IMG/VR virus record: IMGVR_UViG_3300028592_000075
Location: 1 to 27,148 of that record
DNA from: a virus
Reading direction: 5' to 3' (one strand)
Length of the DNA: 27,148 bases
The notes below the pieces were generated by a model. The model was not told the origin of the DNA and did no database searches. It saw nothing but the letters and a program-made list of their open reading frames with translations. Made by a program: the position numbers and the translations under genes. Of the stretch, positions 6,068 through 15,168 are shown piece by piece (the stretch's first letter is position 1; each line of letters opens with the position of its first letter).

Positions 6068-6251
6068 TAGATTTACCATCGTAGAACGACGGCAAGCAAC
6101 TATGTGGATGTATGCTGCTCCAATTCAATATGACCTATATTGGGATATTAAGCGTAACTCTGATGGTCTCGTAATCAAAAGCTTCACTGATTATTTAGAG
6201 TCCTTAAAGTATCACGAAGCATTGGAGGATCGCTCTTGGCTCGCATCTTAA
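6060..6251 (+). CDS. Hypothetical protein (63 aa)
   Basis: A 63-aa soluble protein not recognised. ATG 6060 follows AGAGGT by 8 nt and is preferred to an in-frame GTG at 6051. The sequence is rich in aromatic residues (TMWMYAAPIQYDLYWDI) and then becomes an acidic helix. It overlaps the preceding gene by 8 bp and the next gene by 16 bp. There is no membrane helix or metal motif. Confidence 0.6.
   Translation: MANRFTIVERRQATMWMYAAPIQYDLYWDIKRNSDGLVIKSFTDYLESLKYHEALEDRSWLAS
6224..6229 (+). promoter_or_regulatory. Shine-Dalgarno that sets a TTG start for the exonuclease
   Basis: GGAGGA lies 6 nt before TTG at 6236. The first catalytic motif (LILDIE) begins only five codons later, so a downstream start would remove it. 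This supports TTG as the true start. Confidence 0.7.
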
Positions 6252-7006
6252 TTCTCGACATCGAAACTGCTCCTAACATTGCTTACGTCTGGCGTTTCTT
6301 TAAAGAGAACGTTGGGGCTAAGCAGGTGTTAGAGCACACAGAGATTATGTCCTTCTCATTTAAATGGCTAGGTGATCCTACCATTTACTATTACGATAAG
6401 CAATATTGTACAGAGAAGGTATTGCTTGAACCACTGATGGAGGCGCTAGATGCTGCTGATATTGTCGTTGCCCATAATGGCGCTAAGTTCGATCTTCCTA
6501 CTATTCAAGGTCGTGCTCTGGTGGCAGGGTATCGTCCACCTAGCCCTTACAAGATCGTTGATACCGTACTGGTGGCTCGATATGAGTTTAACTTTCCTTC
6601 TAATAGTCTTGAATATCTTTCTGGTATTCTCGGTGTAGAGAAGAAGGATGACCATAAGAAGTTCCCCGGATTTGAACTGTGGTCTGAATGTCTGAAGGGT
6701 AATCCTGAAGCATGGGAAGAGATGAAGCTCTATAACATTCAGGATATTATTACACTTGAACAGGTATATCTGAAGATGCGTCCATGGATGCGACGTCATC
6801 CTAATGTTGGTGTATTCGAAGATCAGAAGGAAGTGGTTTGTCCCAAGTGTGGTGGTAATCATATTCACTGGCGTGGTTATGCACATACTAACACAGGACG
6901 TTATCATCGTTTTCAATGTAATGATTGTGGTGGTTGGGGTCGTACTCGCACTTCTATTTATCCGACAGAACTGAAGAAAAATCTAGTTGTTAACGTAGCT
7001 AATTAA
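6236..7006 (+). CDS. DnaQ-fold 3'-5' exonuclease with C-terminal zinc ribbon
   Basis: A 256-aa nuclease of the RNase H-like/DnaQ exonuclease fold. Exo I is LILDIET (D8, E10), Exo II is HNGAKFD (N81, D86), and Exo III is YNIQDIITLEQVY (D170). After residue 200 a zinc ribbon follows with C202/C205 (VCPKCGG) and C228/C231 (CNDCGG). The polymerase encoded at 576-2450 already has its own proofreading domain, so this is a second, independent exonuclease. It may act in recombination, in degrading host DNA, or on RNA-DNA hybrids. The zinc ribbon could bind ssDNA. It overlaps the preceding gene by 16 bp and is followed by a clear AAGGAGAG for the next small gene. Confidence 0.85.
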   Translation: MARILILDIETAPNIAYVWRFFKENVGAKQVLEHTEIMSFSFKWLGDPTIYYYDKQYCTEKVLLEPLMEALDAADIVVAHNGAKFDLPTIQGRALVAGYRPPSPYKIVDTVLVARYEFNFPSNSLEYLSGILGVEKKDDHKKFPGFELWSECLKGNPEAWEEMKLYNIQDIITLEQVYLKMRPWMRRHPNVGVFEDQKEVVCPKCGGNHIHWRGYAHTNTGRYHRFQCNDCGGWGRTRTSIYPTELKKNLVVNVAN

Positions 7007-7191: not shown

Positions 7192-7500
7192 ATGTTTAAG
7201 TATATTGCTTCTGTATTAATCACTCTGGCACTTATTGTGCCAGCTAGTGCTAGTCAGTTCATCGAAGTTAAGACTGACCCCTGTCGTACGTTTGAAATCC
7301 AGAAGGCTGAAGTTAAGGCAGCTCGTCCTGATGTGACGATTGTATCTCCCTTGGATGACGAAGGAGTTGTTGTCTACAAGCAGGTAGATGGTGATATTAC
7401 TACTTACATCGCCTCTCATTTCAATGCAGACGGTTGTCTTGATGGTATTCTTGTCCTTAATCAGGATGAATATAACGAATATTTCGGTATTGTTTCCTGA
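7192..7500 (+). CDS. Exported small protein with signal peptide (102 aa)
   Basis: The N-terminus is a textbook Sec signal peptide: MFKYIA, a hydrophobic core SVLITLALIVP, and an ASA|S-type cleavage site near residue 20. The mature part (about 82 aa) looks beta-rich and contains two cysteines that could form a disulfide in the periplasm. No family was recognised. GGAGA lies 7 nt before ATG 7192. Its TGA shares a base with the ATG of thyX. An exported protein inside the nucleotide-metabolism block is unexpected. Possible roles are superinfection exclusion or periplasmic inhibition, neither shown by the sequence. Confidence 0.8.
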   Translation: MFKYIASVLITLALIVPASASQFIEVKTDPCRTFEIQKAEVKAARPDVTIVSPLDDEGVVVYKQVDGDITTYIASHFNADGCLDGILVLNQDEYNEYFGIVS

Positions 7501-8177
7501 TGAAGGCTGAACTTATCGACACGATGGGTAATGATCTCACCGTTGTAAATGCTGCTCGGGTTTCTTTTGATAAGGAATCCGAGTGGGAGTGGAGTTATGA
7601 TGGTAACGGAGATGAAGCACTTCTGGCCGAGAAAGATCAGAAGCTTATTAATTACCTAGCCAAGCATAACCATTGGACACCGTTCTCTCATGTTATGATC
7701 ACGATGAGAGAGACTGTCCCTATCTTCGTAGCTCGTCAACGCTTTAAACATATGGTAGGGTTTACGTACAATGAAGTAAGTCGGCGTTATGTAGATACGC
7801 CTCCTGAGTTCTTCATCCCTGAGTCGTGGCGTAAAGCTGCTGAGAATAAGAAGCAGGGTAGTAGTGATGAAAGTCTTATAGGACTGGATGCCGATTCGGC
7901 TGGGTTTCATTATGAAGAATTAATCCAGTATGCAAAAGAAATGTATACGATGTTGATTAATATGGGTGTAGCTCCGGAGCAAGCTCGTATGGTGTTGCCT
8001 CAGTCTATGTACACGTCCTACTACGTTACTGGATCGTTAGCAGCGTGGGCTAGAGCCTATAAGCTTCGTATTGACCCTCATGCTCAGAAAGAGATTCAAG
8101 ACCTCGCTGTACAGTGGGGAGATATCATTGGCGCTATTCCAGAATTGAAATACTCATGGGAGGCCCTCACTAAGTAA
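7500..8177 (+). CDS. thyX: Flavin-dependent thymidylate synthase ThyX
   Basis: A 225-aa ThyX that methylates dUMP to dTMP using FAD, NADPH and methylene-tetrahydrofolate. Family features are HWTPFSH (58-64), the ARQ-initiated signature helix (78-97) ending in NEVSRRY, and the C-terminal block QARMVLPQSMYTSYY with LRIDPHAQKEIQ. The usual RHRx7S signature is altered: the RHR position reads KHM (83-85), and there is one extra residue before S94. The rest of the active-site scaffold is intact, so an active phage-type variant is likely. It starts at ATG 7500, overlapping the TGA of the exported-protein gene by one base. It works upstream of the RNR genes in supplying dTTP. Confidence 0.93.
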   Translation: MKAELIDTMGNDLTVVNAARVSFDKESEWEWSYDGNGDEALLAEKDQKLINYLAKHNHWTPFSHVMITMRETVPIFVARQRFKHMVGFTYNEVSRRYVDTPPEFFIPESWRKAAENKKQGSSDESLIGLDADSAGFHYEELIQYAKEMYTMLINMGVAPEQARMVLPQSMYTSYYVTGSLAAWARAYKLRIDPHAQKEIQDLAVQWGDIIGAIPELKYSWEALTK

Positions 8178-8216
8178 GCTTAATTGAGGTATATACATAT
8201 ACACAACTAAAAGATT

Positions 8217-8222
8217 GGAGGA
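8217..8222 (+). promoter_or_regulatory. Strong Shine-Dalgarno with no AUG/GUG/UUG after it
   Basis: GGAGGA is followed 5 nt later by ATC (8228) and 2 nt later by ATT (8225), in frame with a 99-codon open frame. The whole 50-bp space after thyX otherwise holds an AT-rich run (8189-8200) and nothing recognisable. Confidence 0.6.
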
Positions 8223-8227
8223 TTATT

Positions 8228-8527
8228 ATCAGCCTCTACGAAGGAACAAGTATTAAAGAACTTATCTCAGGAGAATTCCAACTACGGATTGTAATACAGA
8301 AGCAAGAAGGTGGTATCTCTATCAAGAGAATAACTACTATCGTCCCTATTGGGGATTGTACTTATATCAGACACCTACCACTCACCACTACAATTAAACT
8401 TATGTTGATTAATTCTCCTGAAGTTTCTCCATTCCTTTCCTACTTCAGGAAAGATACTCGTGATAAGTTCGAGATTAAACTCGATGGAGACGATAAGTTA
8501 AGACGAATAATCATTAATTCTATTTAA
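8228..8527 (+). CDS. Hypothetical protein with apparent ATC (or ATT) start
   Basis: A frame of 99 codons fills almost all of the 362-bp stretch between thyX and nrdB. It is open from 8174 to the TAA at 8525-8527 but has no ATG, GTG or TTG until an internal ATG at 8401. A strong GGAGGA at 8217-8222 puts initiation at ATC 8228 (or ATT 8225). The predicted product looks like a real protein: beta-rich, basic, with FQLRIVIQKQEGGISIKRIT and KFEIKLDGDDKLRRIIINS, and no membrane helix. No family was recognised. Alternatives are an assembly error or mutation in an original ATG, or decay into a pseudogene that now starts at 8401. Confidence 0.6.
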   Translation: MSLYEGTSIKELISGEFQLRIVIQKQEGGISIKRITTIVPIGDCTYIRHLPLTTTIKLMLINSPEVSPFLSYFRKDTRDKFEIKLDGDDKLRRIIINSI

Positions 8528-8539
8528 GGAAGGAATACG

Positions 8540-9514
8540 ATGGGCCTCTTTGACGAGCAGATTAGTCGTAAGCCTGACCTCTATCCTAAAGCCAGTGATT
8601 TTATCTCTGCCATGTGGCATGGGTCATGGACACCCGATGAATTTAATTTCAAATCAGATTACTCTCAGTTCAAATCAGAACTGACGAAAGAAGAACAACA
8701 AATCATTACTCGTACTCTCTCTGCAATCGGACAGATTGAAGTGGCAGTGAAGAAGTTTTGGTCTAAGCTTGGCGATAACTTCCCTCATCCGTCTATTGCG
8801 GACCTTGGCTATGTCATGGCTGACATTGAGGTGAGACATAATAAGGCATACGAAAAGCTGTTAGATGTTCTTGGACTCGAACATGTATTCGAAGAAAACC
8901 TCAAAGAGCCTGTCGTTGCTGGACGTGTAAAGTATTTACGTAAGTATCTGGATAAGGTGTATAAGGACGATAAGAAACAATACATCTATGCTCTTATCCT
9001 CTTCACTCTATTCGTAGAGAACGTATCTCTCTTCAGCCAGTTCTATATCATCCTCTGGTTTAGACGTAATAAGAATGTATTGAACGATGCTGCACAGCAG
9101 GTAGAATATACTCGTAATGAGGAACATCTCCATGCTCAGGTAGGTATCTGGCTTGTCAATGAACTCCGTCAGGAATATCCTGAACTGTTTGATGAAGAAC
9201 TTATTCATCGAGTTGTATGGGAAGCTCAAGAGGCATTCCGAGCTGAACGAGATATCATCGATTGGATGATTGGTGATTATAATCAAGATGGATTGAATGC
9301 CAATATCCTTAAAGATTATGTGGATCATCGTATCAATATGAGCCTGTCTCAGATTGGATTTGAAGGATATAAGATTGATATCAAATCTCATGAAGAGTTT
9401 AAGTGGATGGATGAAGAGCTGCACGGATATAATATGAAAGACTTCTTCGCTGGTAAGGATAAGAACTACGGGAAGAATAACAAAACTTACAACGATGAAG
9501 AGGTGTTCGGTTGA
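8540..9514 (+). CDS. nrdB: Class I ribonucleotide reductase small subunit NrdB
   Basis: A 324-aa ferritin-like subunit that generates and stores the tyrosyl radical used by NrdA to reduce ribonucleotides. Candidate metal ligands are E67, E97 and H100 (IEVRHNKAY), E160 (FVENVSLF), and E195 and H198 (EEHLH). Y104, three residues after H100, matches the radical tyrosine spacing E-x2-H-x3-Y, so this is a tyrosyl-radical type and not a class Ic-like variant. The acidic C-terminal tail (NDEEVFG) is the expected docking peptide for NrdA. AAGGAAGGA precedes ATG 8540. The end overlaps nrdA by 4 bp, favouring equal expression. Confidence 0.95.
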   Translation: MGLFDEQISRKPDLYPKASDFISAMWHGSWTPDEFNFKSDYSQFKSELTKEEQQIITRTLSAIGQIEVAVKKFWSKLGDNFPHPSIADLGYVMADIEVRHNKAYEKLLDVLGLEHVFEENLKEPVVAGRVKYLRKYLDKVYKDDKKQYIYALILFTLFVENVSLFSQFYIILWFRRNKNVLNDAAQQVEYTRNEEHLHAQVGIWLVNELRQEYPELFDEELIHRVVWEAQEAFRAERDIIDWMIGDYNQDGLNANILKDYVDHRINMSLSQIGFEGYKIDIKSHEEFKWMDEELHGYNMKDFFAGKDKNYGKNNKTYNDEEVFG

Positions 9515-11133
9515 CTTGGTGGATTAATAAAGATACACGAACATTCATGTCCCGTGGTTATCTAGCAGAAGGACAAACAGTTGAAGAACGTATCCATCAG
9601 ATTGCACAAGCGGCTGAAAAGTATTTGGGATTCGAATTTGCTGAAGAATTTGAGGGACAGCTTCTTGCTGGTTGGATTAGTCTTGCTAGCCCTATTTGGA
9701 GTAACTACGGTTTGGATCGTGGCCTCCCTATTTCCTGTAACGGCTCTTATATTGATGATAGCATTGATGATATTCTATATAAGACGTTAGAGATTGGGGT
9801 ACAGACAAAGCATGGAGCAGGAACAAGTGCCTATCTCGGAGCGATTAGAGGTCGTGGAAATCAGATTTCTACAGGCGGTAGGGCTGATGGACCAGTCCAT
9901 TACGCCTCCCTTATCGAACAAACGACGAATATCATTTCTCAATCTAATGTTCGTAGGGGTAGCTGTGCTATCTATCTTCCTGTTGATCATCCTGACATTA
10001 ATGAATTCTTAGACATCAGGGAAGAAGGTAATTCTATTCAGCATGTATCTCTTGGTGTCACCATCACGGATAAGTGGATGGAAGAGATGCTAGCAGGGGA
10101 TAAGGACAAGCGTAAAATCTGGATGCGTATCATCCGTAAGAGATTTGAAACTGGTTATCCCTATATCTTCTGGACGGATACAGTTAATAACAATCGTCCT
10201 AAGGAGGTCGTAGACCATATCTATGCATCTAATCTGTGTAGTGAAATCGCTCTACCTTCAGACGTAGATAACACATTCGTATGTTGTCTATCGTCTCTTA
10301 ATCTATTGAAGTATGATGAATGGAAGGACTCTACAGTTGTTCGTAACTTGGTTTATTTCTTGGATACAGTCATTACAGAATACGTCAATAAGACAGAAGG
10401 AATTAGAGGCTTTGAGACAGCGAGAAACTTCTCGAAGAAGTACAGAGCAATTGGAGTTGGAACTCTAGGTTATCATTCATACCTCCAATCAAAGCTAATT
10501 CCCTTTGAAGGACTACGAGCACAGATGGAGAACGTAGAGATACATTCCCTCATCTCTAGAAGGGCTCTAGAAGCCTCTAGGGAGCTCGTACAGCGGGGTT
10601 TCGATGATGTCCTAGGCAGTGGTAGGCGAAACGCTACAACTATGGCTGTAGCCCCTACTACAAGCTCTAGTTTCATTCTCGGTCAGGTGAGTCCTAGTGT
10701 CGAACCTCTCAACTCGAATTATTTCGTTAAAGACTTGGCTAAGGGTAAGTTCACTTATCGTAATCCATTCCTTAAAGATGTACTGAAAGAGATTGATAAG
10801 GATAGCGATGAAGTATGGGACTCTATCCTCATGAGGGGTGGTAGTGTCCAGCATCTGGATTTCCTATCTGACGATCTGAAGAAGGTGTTTAAAACCTTTG
10901 GTGAAATCAGTCAGTATGAAATCATTACACAGGCTGCTGATCGTCAGAAATATATTGATCAATCTCAATCTATCAATCTTATGATCCATCCTAAGTCGTC
11001 TGCTAAGGACGTACATGAGCTTCTTGTAGAAGCATGGAAGCTTGGATTGAAGACGCTCTACTATCAACGTTCTACTAATCCAGCACAGGAATACGCTCGT
11101 AGCTTATACGAATGTGTGGCGTGTGGAGCCTAG
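9511..11133 (+). CDS. nrdA: Class I ribonucleotide reductase large subunit NrdA
   Basis: The catalytic RNR subunit, 540 aa, much shorter than E. coli NrdA (761). The protein opens directly with the barrel-domain sequence TRTFMSRGYLAEG, so the N-terminal ATP-cone that senses overall activity is missing. Catalytic residues are visible: C76 in PISCNGS and C258 in VCCLSSLNL as the redox pair, N241-C243-E245 in NLCSEIALP for the thiyl site, the radical-transfer tyrosines in LYYQRS, and a C-terminal CVACGA (C535/C538) for re-reduction. PTTSSS is the phosphate-binding loop. The start is TTG 9511 inside the nrdB stop (TTGA); the next ATG (9547) would remove conserved residues. Without the cone, dATP feedback is probably absent. 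Confidence 0.94.
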   Translation: MTWWINKDTRTFMSRGYLAEGQTVEERIHQIAQAAEKYLGFEFAEEFEGQLLAGWISLASPIWSNYGLDRGLPISCNGSYIDDSIDDILYKTLEIGVQTKHGAGTSAYLGAIRGRGNQISTGGRADGPVHYASLIEQTTNIISQSNVRRGSCAIYLPVDHPDINEFLDIREEGNSIQHVSLGVTITDKWMEEMLAGDKDKRKIWMRIIRKRFETGYPYIFWTDTVNNNRPKEVVDHIYASNLCSEIALPSDVDNTFVCCLSSLNLLKYDEWKDSTVVRNLVYFLDTVITEYVNKTEGIRGFETARNFSKKYRAIGVGTLGYHSYLQSKLIPFEGLRAQMENVEIHSLISRRALEASRELVQRGFDDVLGSGRRNATTMAVAPTTSSSFILGQVSPSVEPLNSNYFVKDLAKGKFTYRNPFLKDVLKEIDKDSDEVWDSILMRGGSVQHLDFLSDDLKKVFKTFGEISQYEIITQAADRQKYIDQSQSINLMIHPKSSAKDVHELLVEAWKLGLKTLYYQRSTNPAQEYARSLYECVACGA

Positions 11134-12883: not shown

Positions 12884-15168
12884 TAAGCATTACCTTTTCT
12901 ATTAGCCCAAGCTTTGAATTGAGCTACAGTCATTCCACGAAGGAAAGAGTTAGCACTAATAACTCGTGCAGGAACATAATCACTGACCAATCCATTCGTA
13001 GCATTCAATACCTTAACGGCATCACCAGCTCCAAGGAAATGGGCAGCATACAGTGTACCATTATTCAGAGGCACACCATTCGTTCTAAGCTGTCGAGCAT
13101 TCTCTGCCGTGAACAGTCTGATAGCTACTTCCTGTTGCTGTGGATTTAACCTACCATCGTAGGTTAGTCCAGTGTTGGGATAACGATTAACAAGATCATT
13201 CCACGTAGACTTCAGGAATTGGTATCTGCCAGTAGCTGTAGACGTAGGATTCTTAGCACTGTCATCACCAGCACTCTCAGAGGCTCTGATTGACGGGAGG
13301 TAATCATCATAGTTGATACCTGCTACGTCAGTATAAGCTGGATCGAGAGGGGGTAGTTCAGTGGTGAGGCTACTAGCCTGGGTGGTATATTCCTCAAGAG
13401 GTTCTAACGTATCAGGATTGAAGTCACCGATAGAGAATGATTGAGCATCAGCTTCAGTATCAGTCGCCTCATCGGCCCCCTCACCTACCCCACCAGTTAA
13501 AGGGGCGGCTGCCTCTCCCCCATCTGCACTAATGCCAAACAATCTATTAGCAAAATCTTCTTCGTAAATCTTAGAAGCATCAGTGCCAGTGACATTAGCA
13601 TAAGCATTGATCAGATTGTTAAGCGGGATGCCGATAGAGTTATCACCAGACGTTACATCGTTAGCAAGAGCAATCACTCTAGCGTTATTAACGTAAGCAG
13701 CCTTAGGAACAAACTCTACCGCATTACCATTCCAACGAGGCTCAAGGAGCTGGTTCATAGGAATGTTCTGCATCTCTACTCGTTCACCAGCAGTAGGGTT
13801 CTGAATAGGGACAGGGGCTGTCCATGCTCTATCGACTGCAGGGAGAAGTTCTTGTTCATAATTATTCTGAAGAACAGAAATAAACTGATCCTTATAACGA
13901 GCATCAATCTTACCATGAGTGCTGAGGAATGCTCCCACTTCATTACTACCAAGAAGCTCAACAATATCCTTGAACCCGATAGCACCTTCAGCAGAACGCT
14001 CATGAACATAAGCACTATTCACTGCATCATTAATCGCATCATTCAATTCAGTGATAAGTTCTGGACTACTAGTGTTAGTGATAGCACCAGCAGCCTGACG
14101 AATGTTGTCAGAGAATCTAGCACTACCCTCAGTATTGTCCGTGAGGTTCACAGTCTTGTTAGGATTACTAACTTCAGCCAACTTCTTCAACGCTTCAGGG
14201 GTCCAGATGTCTACACCGAAAGTGGTGTTAGCTAGGCCAAGATCATTGATAAGCTTAGACTGAGCAATCACTGGACCAAGGGTGGGATCATTAGCGTACA
14301 TCAACGAGTAAGTACTCTGTGTCTGCTTAAGAGCCCCTTCTAGTACAGCATTACTAACTTCACCATTCACCCACTTGTTGAACGTATCCATAGCCCCTTC
14401 AATAGGAGCAGTGATGTAAGCGTTGTCTTCTGAGTTACCAGTGAGATACTTAAGCTGGGCTACACTCTGTCCAATTACTGTATTGAGGTTAGTAGCAATC
14501 TCAGTCTTGTTATTAGGATTAGCGTTGATAGCAGCCATAGCTTCATTGATCTGACGTTGAGCAGAAGGGTATGCACTCTCTGCTAGACCAACAGTAGCCT
14601 GAGTATATTTAAGCCTCTGTGTCTCAGTAAGCTGTGCACCCCTACCTTTTAGAATATCTACTTCCGTATTAAGAGCAGCAAGCTCATTAGCTCTAGATTG
14701 AAACATACGATATTCGTCTACAGAATAACCCTTACTAAACGCTTCCTTAGCAAGAGCTTCATTAGCTTGCTGTTCAACCGTACCTTGAATAACAACATGA
14801 CCAAGGCCATTAGCTCCAGCGAAGTCTGTCCATACAGTATCGAAATCATCCTGCAATGCAGGGGCATTGGAGAGATATTGACGACGAATATTACGAGCCT
14901 TGATCATCGCTTCATTACGAGAGATAGAATTCTGATCAACAGCATCAGCTAGATCAAGTAGCTCATTCTCATATGCTGTAAGAATTTTAGCATTCTCATT
15001 CTCTATATTAGATTTGAAAACACCACCAGCTACTTGACCTAGGAATTCAGCAGCAGGGGCTAAAGCGTTAGCCAGCATAGCCCCACTATCGTCTTGTACA
15101 GGAGCTTGAACTTTGACCGTTGGTTCAATGCTACCTTCCATTAATGTATCACCGAAATTAACGGCCAT
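12883..15168 (-). CDS. Internal virion protein with C-terminal lytic transglycosylase domain
   Basis: A 761-aa structural protein, close in size to T7 gp15 (747). Residues 1-600 are helical, Ala/Asn/Gln-rich and low in cysteine, as in ejection proteins. From about residue 620 the sequence changes to a transglycosylase/lysozyme-like domain: SIRASESAGDDSAKNP with the likely catalytic glutamate E631, TGRYQFLKSTW, NPQQQEVAIRLF and LYAAHFLGAG. This would let the particle cut the peptidoglycan during DNA entry. In T7 the equivalent domain is at the N-terminus of gp16, so the location differs. AGGAGA precedes ATG 15168, and the start overlaps the 1664-aa gene by 11 bp. Confidence 0.82.
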   Translation of the reverse strand: MAVNFGDTLMEGSIEPTVKVQAPVQDDSGAMLANALAPAAEFLGQVAGGVFKSNIENENAKILTAYENELLDLADAVDQNSISRNEAMIKARNIRRQYLSNAPALQDDFDTVWTDFAGANGLGHVVIQGTVEQQANEALAKEAFSKGYSVDEYRMFQSRANELAALNTEVDILKGRGAQLTETQRLKYTQATVGLAESAYPSAQRQINEAMAAINANPNNKTEIATNLNTVIGQSVAQLKYLTGNSEDNAYITAPIEGAMDTFNKWVNGEVSNAVLEGALKQTQSTYSLMYANDPTLGPVIAQSKLINDLGLANTTFGVDIWTPEALKKLAEVSNPNKTVNLTDNTEGSARFSDNIRQAAGAITNTSSPELITELNDAINDAVNSAYVHERSAEGAIGFKDIVELLGSNEVGAFLSTHGKIDARYKDQFISVLQNNYEQELLPAVDRAWTAPVPIQNPTAGERVEMQNIPMNQLLEPRWNGNAVEFVPKAAYVNNARVIALANDVTSGDNSIGIPLNNLINAYANVTGTDASKIYEEDFANRLFGISADGGEAAAPLTGGVGEGADEATDTEADAQSFSIGDFNPDTLEPLEEYTTQASSLTTELPPLDPAYTDVAGINYDDYLPSIRASESAGDDSAKNPTSTATGRYQFLKSTWNDLVNRYPNTGLTYDGRLNPQQQEVAIRLFTAENARQLRTNGVPLNNGTLYAAHFLGAGDAVKVLNATNGLVSDYVPARVISANSFLRGMTVAQFKAWANRKGNA

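Follow-up and report, generated by a model that had tools for sequence, protein, structure and literature searches.

Starts of the AUU and AUC type are already known from infC, the gene of initiation factor 3 (IF3), which begins with AUU in E. coli and with ATC in Streptomyces (PMC5472188). In Streptomyces, the GTC start of sigR is repressed by IF3, a regulation shown by experiment (PMC5472188). As IF3 normally represses AUC-type starts (PMC5472188; PMC10158994), low synthesis is expected from such codons. Regarding the phages, the sioviruses contain both classes of ribonucleotide reductase (RNR) (PMC6775973), so the RNR class can differ among close relatives. The element that sequence comparison appears to add to this picture is the recurrence of AUU, AUC and AUA starts in Zobellviridae-like phages; no earlier description of a phage family with repeated starts of this type was found in the open-licence papers searched.

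The window, meaning the whole stretch of DNA analysed here, is a virus record of 27,148 bases whose genome map shows two opposed arms. Besides this arrangement, its homologous DNA polymerase, exonuclease subunit and tail appendage (PHROG 8094) identify it by comparison as a Zobellviridae-like phage, with polA at 53-75% and the exonuclease at 54-70% to its relatives, PA11 and O4 among them. In a tree built from four genes of its close relatives, the record L165 (IMGVR_UViG_3300022200_000061) is its sister (support 0.89). The locus under study, orfX, lies among the following features:

6236 to 7006, plus strand: DNA polymerase exonuclease subunit with a TTG start (PHROG 403; start alignment).
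7500 to 8177, plus strand: thyX, FAD-dependent thymidylate synthase, the upstream neighbour of orfX (homology).
8217 to 8221, plus strand: Shine-Dalgarno (SD) core GGAGG of orfX, 6 nt from the ATC at 8228, like that of the neighbouring genes (sequence).
8225 to 8227, plus strand: ATT, the alternative orfX start, one codon upstream of the ATC and only 3 nt from GGAGG.
8228 to 8230, plus strand: ATC, the likeliest orfX start codon, read as fMet (SD spacing; onset of the L165 similarity; ATC/ATT/ATA starts in relatives).
8228 to 8527, plus strand: orfX, a putative 99-codon gene (open frame; similarity to the +1 frame of L165 nrdJ).
8540 to 9514, plus strand: nrdB, class I RNR small subunit (homology).
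9511 to 11133, plus strand: nrdA, class I RNR large subunit with a TTG start (homology to the nrdA of relatives; sequence).

TTG is the apparent start of the DNA polymerase (576), the exonuclease subunit (6236) and nrdA (9511), and weak start codons are therefore common in that arm of the window. Judged from its place between thyX and nrdB, the product of orfX is probably an early one, expressed together with the nucleotide-metabolism genes.

The open frame is as the original prediction described it, closing with TAA at 8525-8527, counting 99 codons from the ATC and occupying the gap between thyX and nrdB. It is open from 8174, giving 117 codons; of mononucleotide shuffles of this gap, 0.06% contained 115 or more consecutive open codons. 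The first half indeed holds no ATG, GTG or TTG, as the first canonical codon is codon 59 counted from 8228, an ATG at 8402 and not at 8401 as first given; with 2.2 such codons expected over the first 58, this has a chance of about 11% and is not remarkable by itself. A protein-like content had also been claimed. The codon usage of orfX beats 98.8% of shadow frames but is poor for a real coding window (lowest 4%). One antisense frame has a slightly higher score, and the coding signal in codon usage is only weak. The AlphaFold model of the product is of low confidence (pLDDT 49). A real gene of only 40 codons from the ATG at 8402 is hardly credible, since this first canonical in-frame start has no preceding SD and the L165 similarity discussed below spans residues 1-97, including those upstream of 8402.

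The SD core was taken as GGAGG, the part able to pair with the standard anti-SD. The strong SD that had been noticed before ATC and ATT is present, although the distances counted from this core are 6 and 3 nt, instead of the 5 and 2 given for GGAGGA. Most genes of the window have an SD-to-start distance of 5-8 nt, and the ATC at 8228 fits the SD better than the ATT at 8225. Initiation at this AUU, one codon upstream, is an unlikely alternative: AUU is the better documented non-standard start and, with a CAU anticodon, still yielded product with IF3 in vitro (PMC10158994), but a distance of 3 nt is outside the usual spacing in this phage, and in isolates carrying ATT-ATC it is the second codon that would leave the required Cys at the N-terminus. 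On the other hand, IF3 in vitro strongly disfavours AUC with mismatched anticodons (PMC10158994), which counts against the AUC start of orfX. The start was assigned from the SD spacing, the precedent of the family and the onset of one distant match, as the L165 +1 frame, which is no orthologue of orfX, begins to align at the ATC. From these comparisons, the AUC start is likely to be real and part of a family-wide habit. Around 8178-8290, no promoter, terminator or RNA structure stood above shuffles, and an Rfam search of the window gave no match. A ThyX-orfX fusion by frameshifting was rejected, as a stop at 8171-8173 closes the orfX frame upstream and no slippery sequence occurs between that stop and the one of thyX.

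The family precedent comes from start alignments of the conserved genes of the window against their relatives, where some genes have no ATG, GTG or TTG near the N-terminus and carry ATC, ATT, ATA or CTG either at the position that matches the homologous start or beside it:

Polymerase exonuclease subunit (TTG in the window): ATC in L165; ATA in L004 and L168.
HNH genes: ATC in L287; CTG in L178.
5'-3' exonuclease-like genes: ATT in L177; ATC in L196.

A first survey of 219 records, where start support was required from at least two genomes, found 9 of 322 genes in the clade of the window without a canonical start, all with near-cognate codons, compared to one near-cognate start in 555 in other phages (Fisher 8e-4); in this and the following survey the rates are rough, as contigs were chosen by their relatedness to the window, and lower bounds, as only genes without a nearby canonical codon were counted. 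The second survey was restricted to the clade and isolates and comprised 497 ORFs whose start is fixed by homologues from two or more genomes; 12 of them lack ATG, GTG or TTG near the start; these are not 12 independent origins, as O4, IME180 and FBPa8 share one gene. Eleven of the 12 have ATT, ATC or ATA exactly at the homologous start, with a chance of about 3e-12 against a 7% background, and an SD precedes nearly all of them, while the counts of these codons at neighbouring offsets were 0 to 4. The twelfth, in G051, is two codons displaced from an ATC. Among thyX homologues, many apparent ATC/ATT alignments vanished once upstream canonical starts were allowed. In L309 (G050) and L383 (G047), one gene each apparently starts with ATA (IGNWVQTGQPCP and IGKWAKTAQPCP, respectively), each supported by only one other record. 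The original prediction had compared orfX with infC as a rare case; the AUU/AUC starts of infC stand, but an isolated rarity is too narrow a description, as such starts recur in Zobellviridae-like phages.

In isolates of the genus Paundecimvirus (Zobellviridae), such as Pseudomonas phages O4 (G010) and PA11 (G031), the enzyme itself points to the start. Class II amidotransferases require an N-terminal Cys after Met removal, and the codon directly before this catalytic Cys in P. aeruginosa phages is as follows:

ATC: O4, Ty, K4 and IME180.
ATT: FBPa8.
TTG: PA11, TC6, PSA11, PP21, HHBS10_2 and DMTU_1.
ATG: PPAT and PPAY.

Whichever the codon, GGAGG stands before the amidotransferase start in every isolate compared. 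As standard gene callers take only ATG, GTG and TTG, conserved phage enzymes with AUU, AUC or AUA starts are shortened or missed. The O4 amidotransferase (L384, NC_031274.1, 40940-42142 and 42251-42253, complement) is annotated from an internal ATG, with the ATC start 37 codons upstream, while the annotated start in Ty, K4, IME180 and FBPa8 is roughly 14 codons past the ATC or ATT; thus, the deposited proteins are without their catalytic Cys. Similarly, the exonuclease F490_gp45 of Salinivibrio phage CW02 (L400, NC_019540.1, approximately 13880 to 14674) has an ATT start behind AAGGAGG and appears 49 codons short in its record. The presence of the same codon class in records of separate depositors makes sequencing error inadequate for the whole class. 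For orfX itself, an ordinary ATG altered by a strain mutation or by an error of sequencing or assembly is rather improbable; ATC differs from ATG by a single base (8230), but no break was noticed in conserved genes elsewhere in the 27 kb, and the comparable codons in orthologous genes of these isolates make an error unnecessary as an explanation.

Regarding its own relatives, no database homologue of the 99-aa product beyond L165 came from tblastn against phage and plasmid collections, from scans of IMG/VR and GTDB or from Pfam and PHROGs. orfX is known from one metagenome-derived record, with no orthologue of known start. The comparison with homologues had been proposed in the original prediction, where an ATG aligned to the downstream codon or unconstrained substitution upstream of it would speak against the gene, and no such result was found. 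The sole similarity, obtained by searching whole contigs of related phages, is to the +1 frame of nrdJ (class II RNR) of L165, which lies downstream of thyX, in the same place as orfX in the window; thyX followed by nrdJ is also the arrangement of this locus in the closest relatives. When orfX was compared with 38,761 open segments by phmmer, the E-values were 2.4e-10 for the spliced L165 +1 frame and 6.7e-6 for its C-terminal piece taken unspliced. The two pieces are collinear with orfX and separated by a group I intron (Rfam RF00028 at E 2e-8, with a score under the gathering cutoff), and the stop codons of both frames coincide. The local alignment scores 140, whereas shuffles give 27 ± 4.5 and 3000 synonymous recodings of nrdJ at best 85, and the best unrelated segment in the reverse search scores 59; by these three comparisons, chance was ruled out as the origin of the similarity.

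By orfX codon position, the identity between both frames is 0.46, 0.54 and 0.28, as seen where amino acids are conserved and third positions are free to vary. When nrdJ DNA was left to drift neutrally to the same divergence in simulations, the score was 37 ± 15 and stop codons almost always appeared, and a model where L165 nrdJ drifts freely at synonymous sites reproduced the middle-position identity in 0-2% of runs. These results bear on whether orfX might be what is left, untranslated or in decay, of a class II RNR gene swapped for nrdB-nrdA, as could be supposed from the nrdJ following thyX in the closest relatives and from L165 nrdJ being its only similarity. Such a remnant is very unlikely, since orfX and nrdJ gave background scores only, whether compared as DNA or with the RNR frame translated, the frame is intact whereas drift leaves stops in nearly all runs, and it is the third positions, not the second, that are random.

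Descent of orfX from an overlapping +1 frame of nrdJ deserves serious consideration on the basis of the alignments, but is unproven. In L166, the next closest relative, two stops interrupt this frame, which scores at background in L003, L004, L042 and others and is not open and conserved in other close nrdJ genes, and no convincing SD was seen before the aligned TTG of the L165 +1 frame. A profile of orfX and the L165 frame also matched other nrdJ genes, with internal stops, as RNR conservation alone predicts, and was discarded. A fuller scenario, possible but doubtful, is that orfX was born in the nrdJ +1 frame and freed when nrdJ was exchanged for nrdB-nrdA, while the L165 +1 frame would still be selected; never having had an AUG under the RNR codon constraint, orfX would now start on AUC. 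Should the relation hold, it would document a rare case in which an overlapping gene was freed after its host gene was replaced.

Some other features of the RNR genes were observed. The nrdJ intron is at the same site in L165 (8568-9210) and L166 (7878-8614), and that of L165 holds an HNH-like ORF. At about 8245-8415, L165 nrdJ has an insertion of about 55 codons, absent from other nrdJ, directly upstream of the orfX-like stretch. Moreover, nrdB is apparently split by an inserted ORF in FBPa8 (L397, 24034-26797) and HHBS10_2 (L401, 21473-23256), annotated in the latter as a LAGLIDADG homing endonuclease.

As first proposed, orfX is best read as a genuine gene that begins at a non-standard codon, and related phages, independently sequenced isolates included, use AUU, AUC and AUA on conserved genes. 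With a probability of about 0.68, the 99 codons of orfX form a functional gene that this Zobellviridae-like phage translates from the AUC at 8228 under the GGAGG SD, and that is one case of a recurrent habit of the family. The SD would place the 30S subunit at the start, and the ordinary initiator fMet-tRNA would then initiate on AUC despite the third-base mismatch; no phage-encoded initiator-like tRNA that could cause AUH starts was found in the window or the contigs scanned. In the conserved nuclease, replication and amidotransferase genes, the start drifts among AUG, UUG and AUU/AUC/AUA with the SD kept, probably setting a low synthesis level. As orthologues exchange ATG, TTG, ATT and ATC, it is suggested that the expression level matters, and not the exact codon. 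The sequence comparisons demonstrate the open frame, its SD, the repeated use of such starts by relatives and the exchange of start codons among orthologues; for orfX, we infer translation from AUC, a low output and IF3 discrimination as the cause of the latter.

Compared to the described systems, the window resembles Zobellviridae and sioviruses (PMC6775973) in having a replication and nucleotide-metabolism arm facing a structural arm, with homologous DNA polymerase, exonuclease and thyX; it differs in that its DNA polymerase is only about 55% identical to the PA11 type and orfX was not found in those genomes. As in orfX, infC has an AUU or AUC start behind an SD that is usually misannotated; however, infC is autoregulated by its own product, IF3, whereas in the phages many unrelated genes are concerned and the codon varies among orthologues. 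sigR shares the non-canonical start, the low synthesis, which in the phages is deduced, and being missed by gene callers, but has another codon (GTC). The Paundecimvirus class II amidotransferase genes (O4, FBPa8 and PA11) encode a recognizable enzyme with an orthologue series, whereas the start of orfX rests on context; they are alike in having GGAGG followed by ATC or ATT in several members, within the same family-level group. This natural ATG/TTG/ATT/ATC series in P. aeruginosa isolates makes the effect of a weak start on the phage, and the action of IF3, directly testable.
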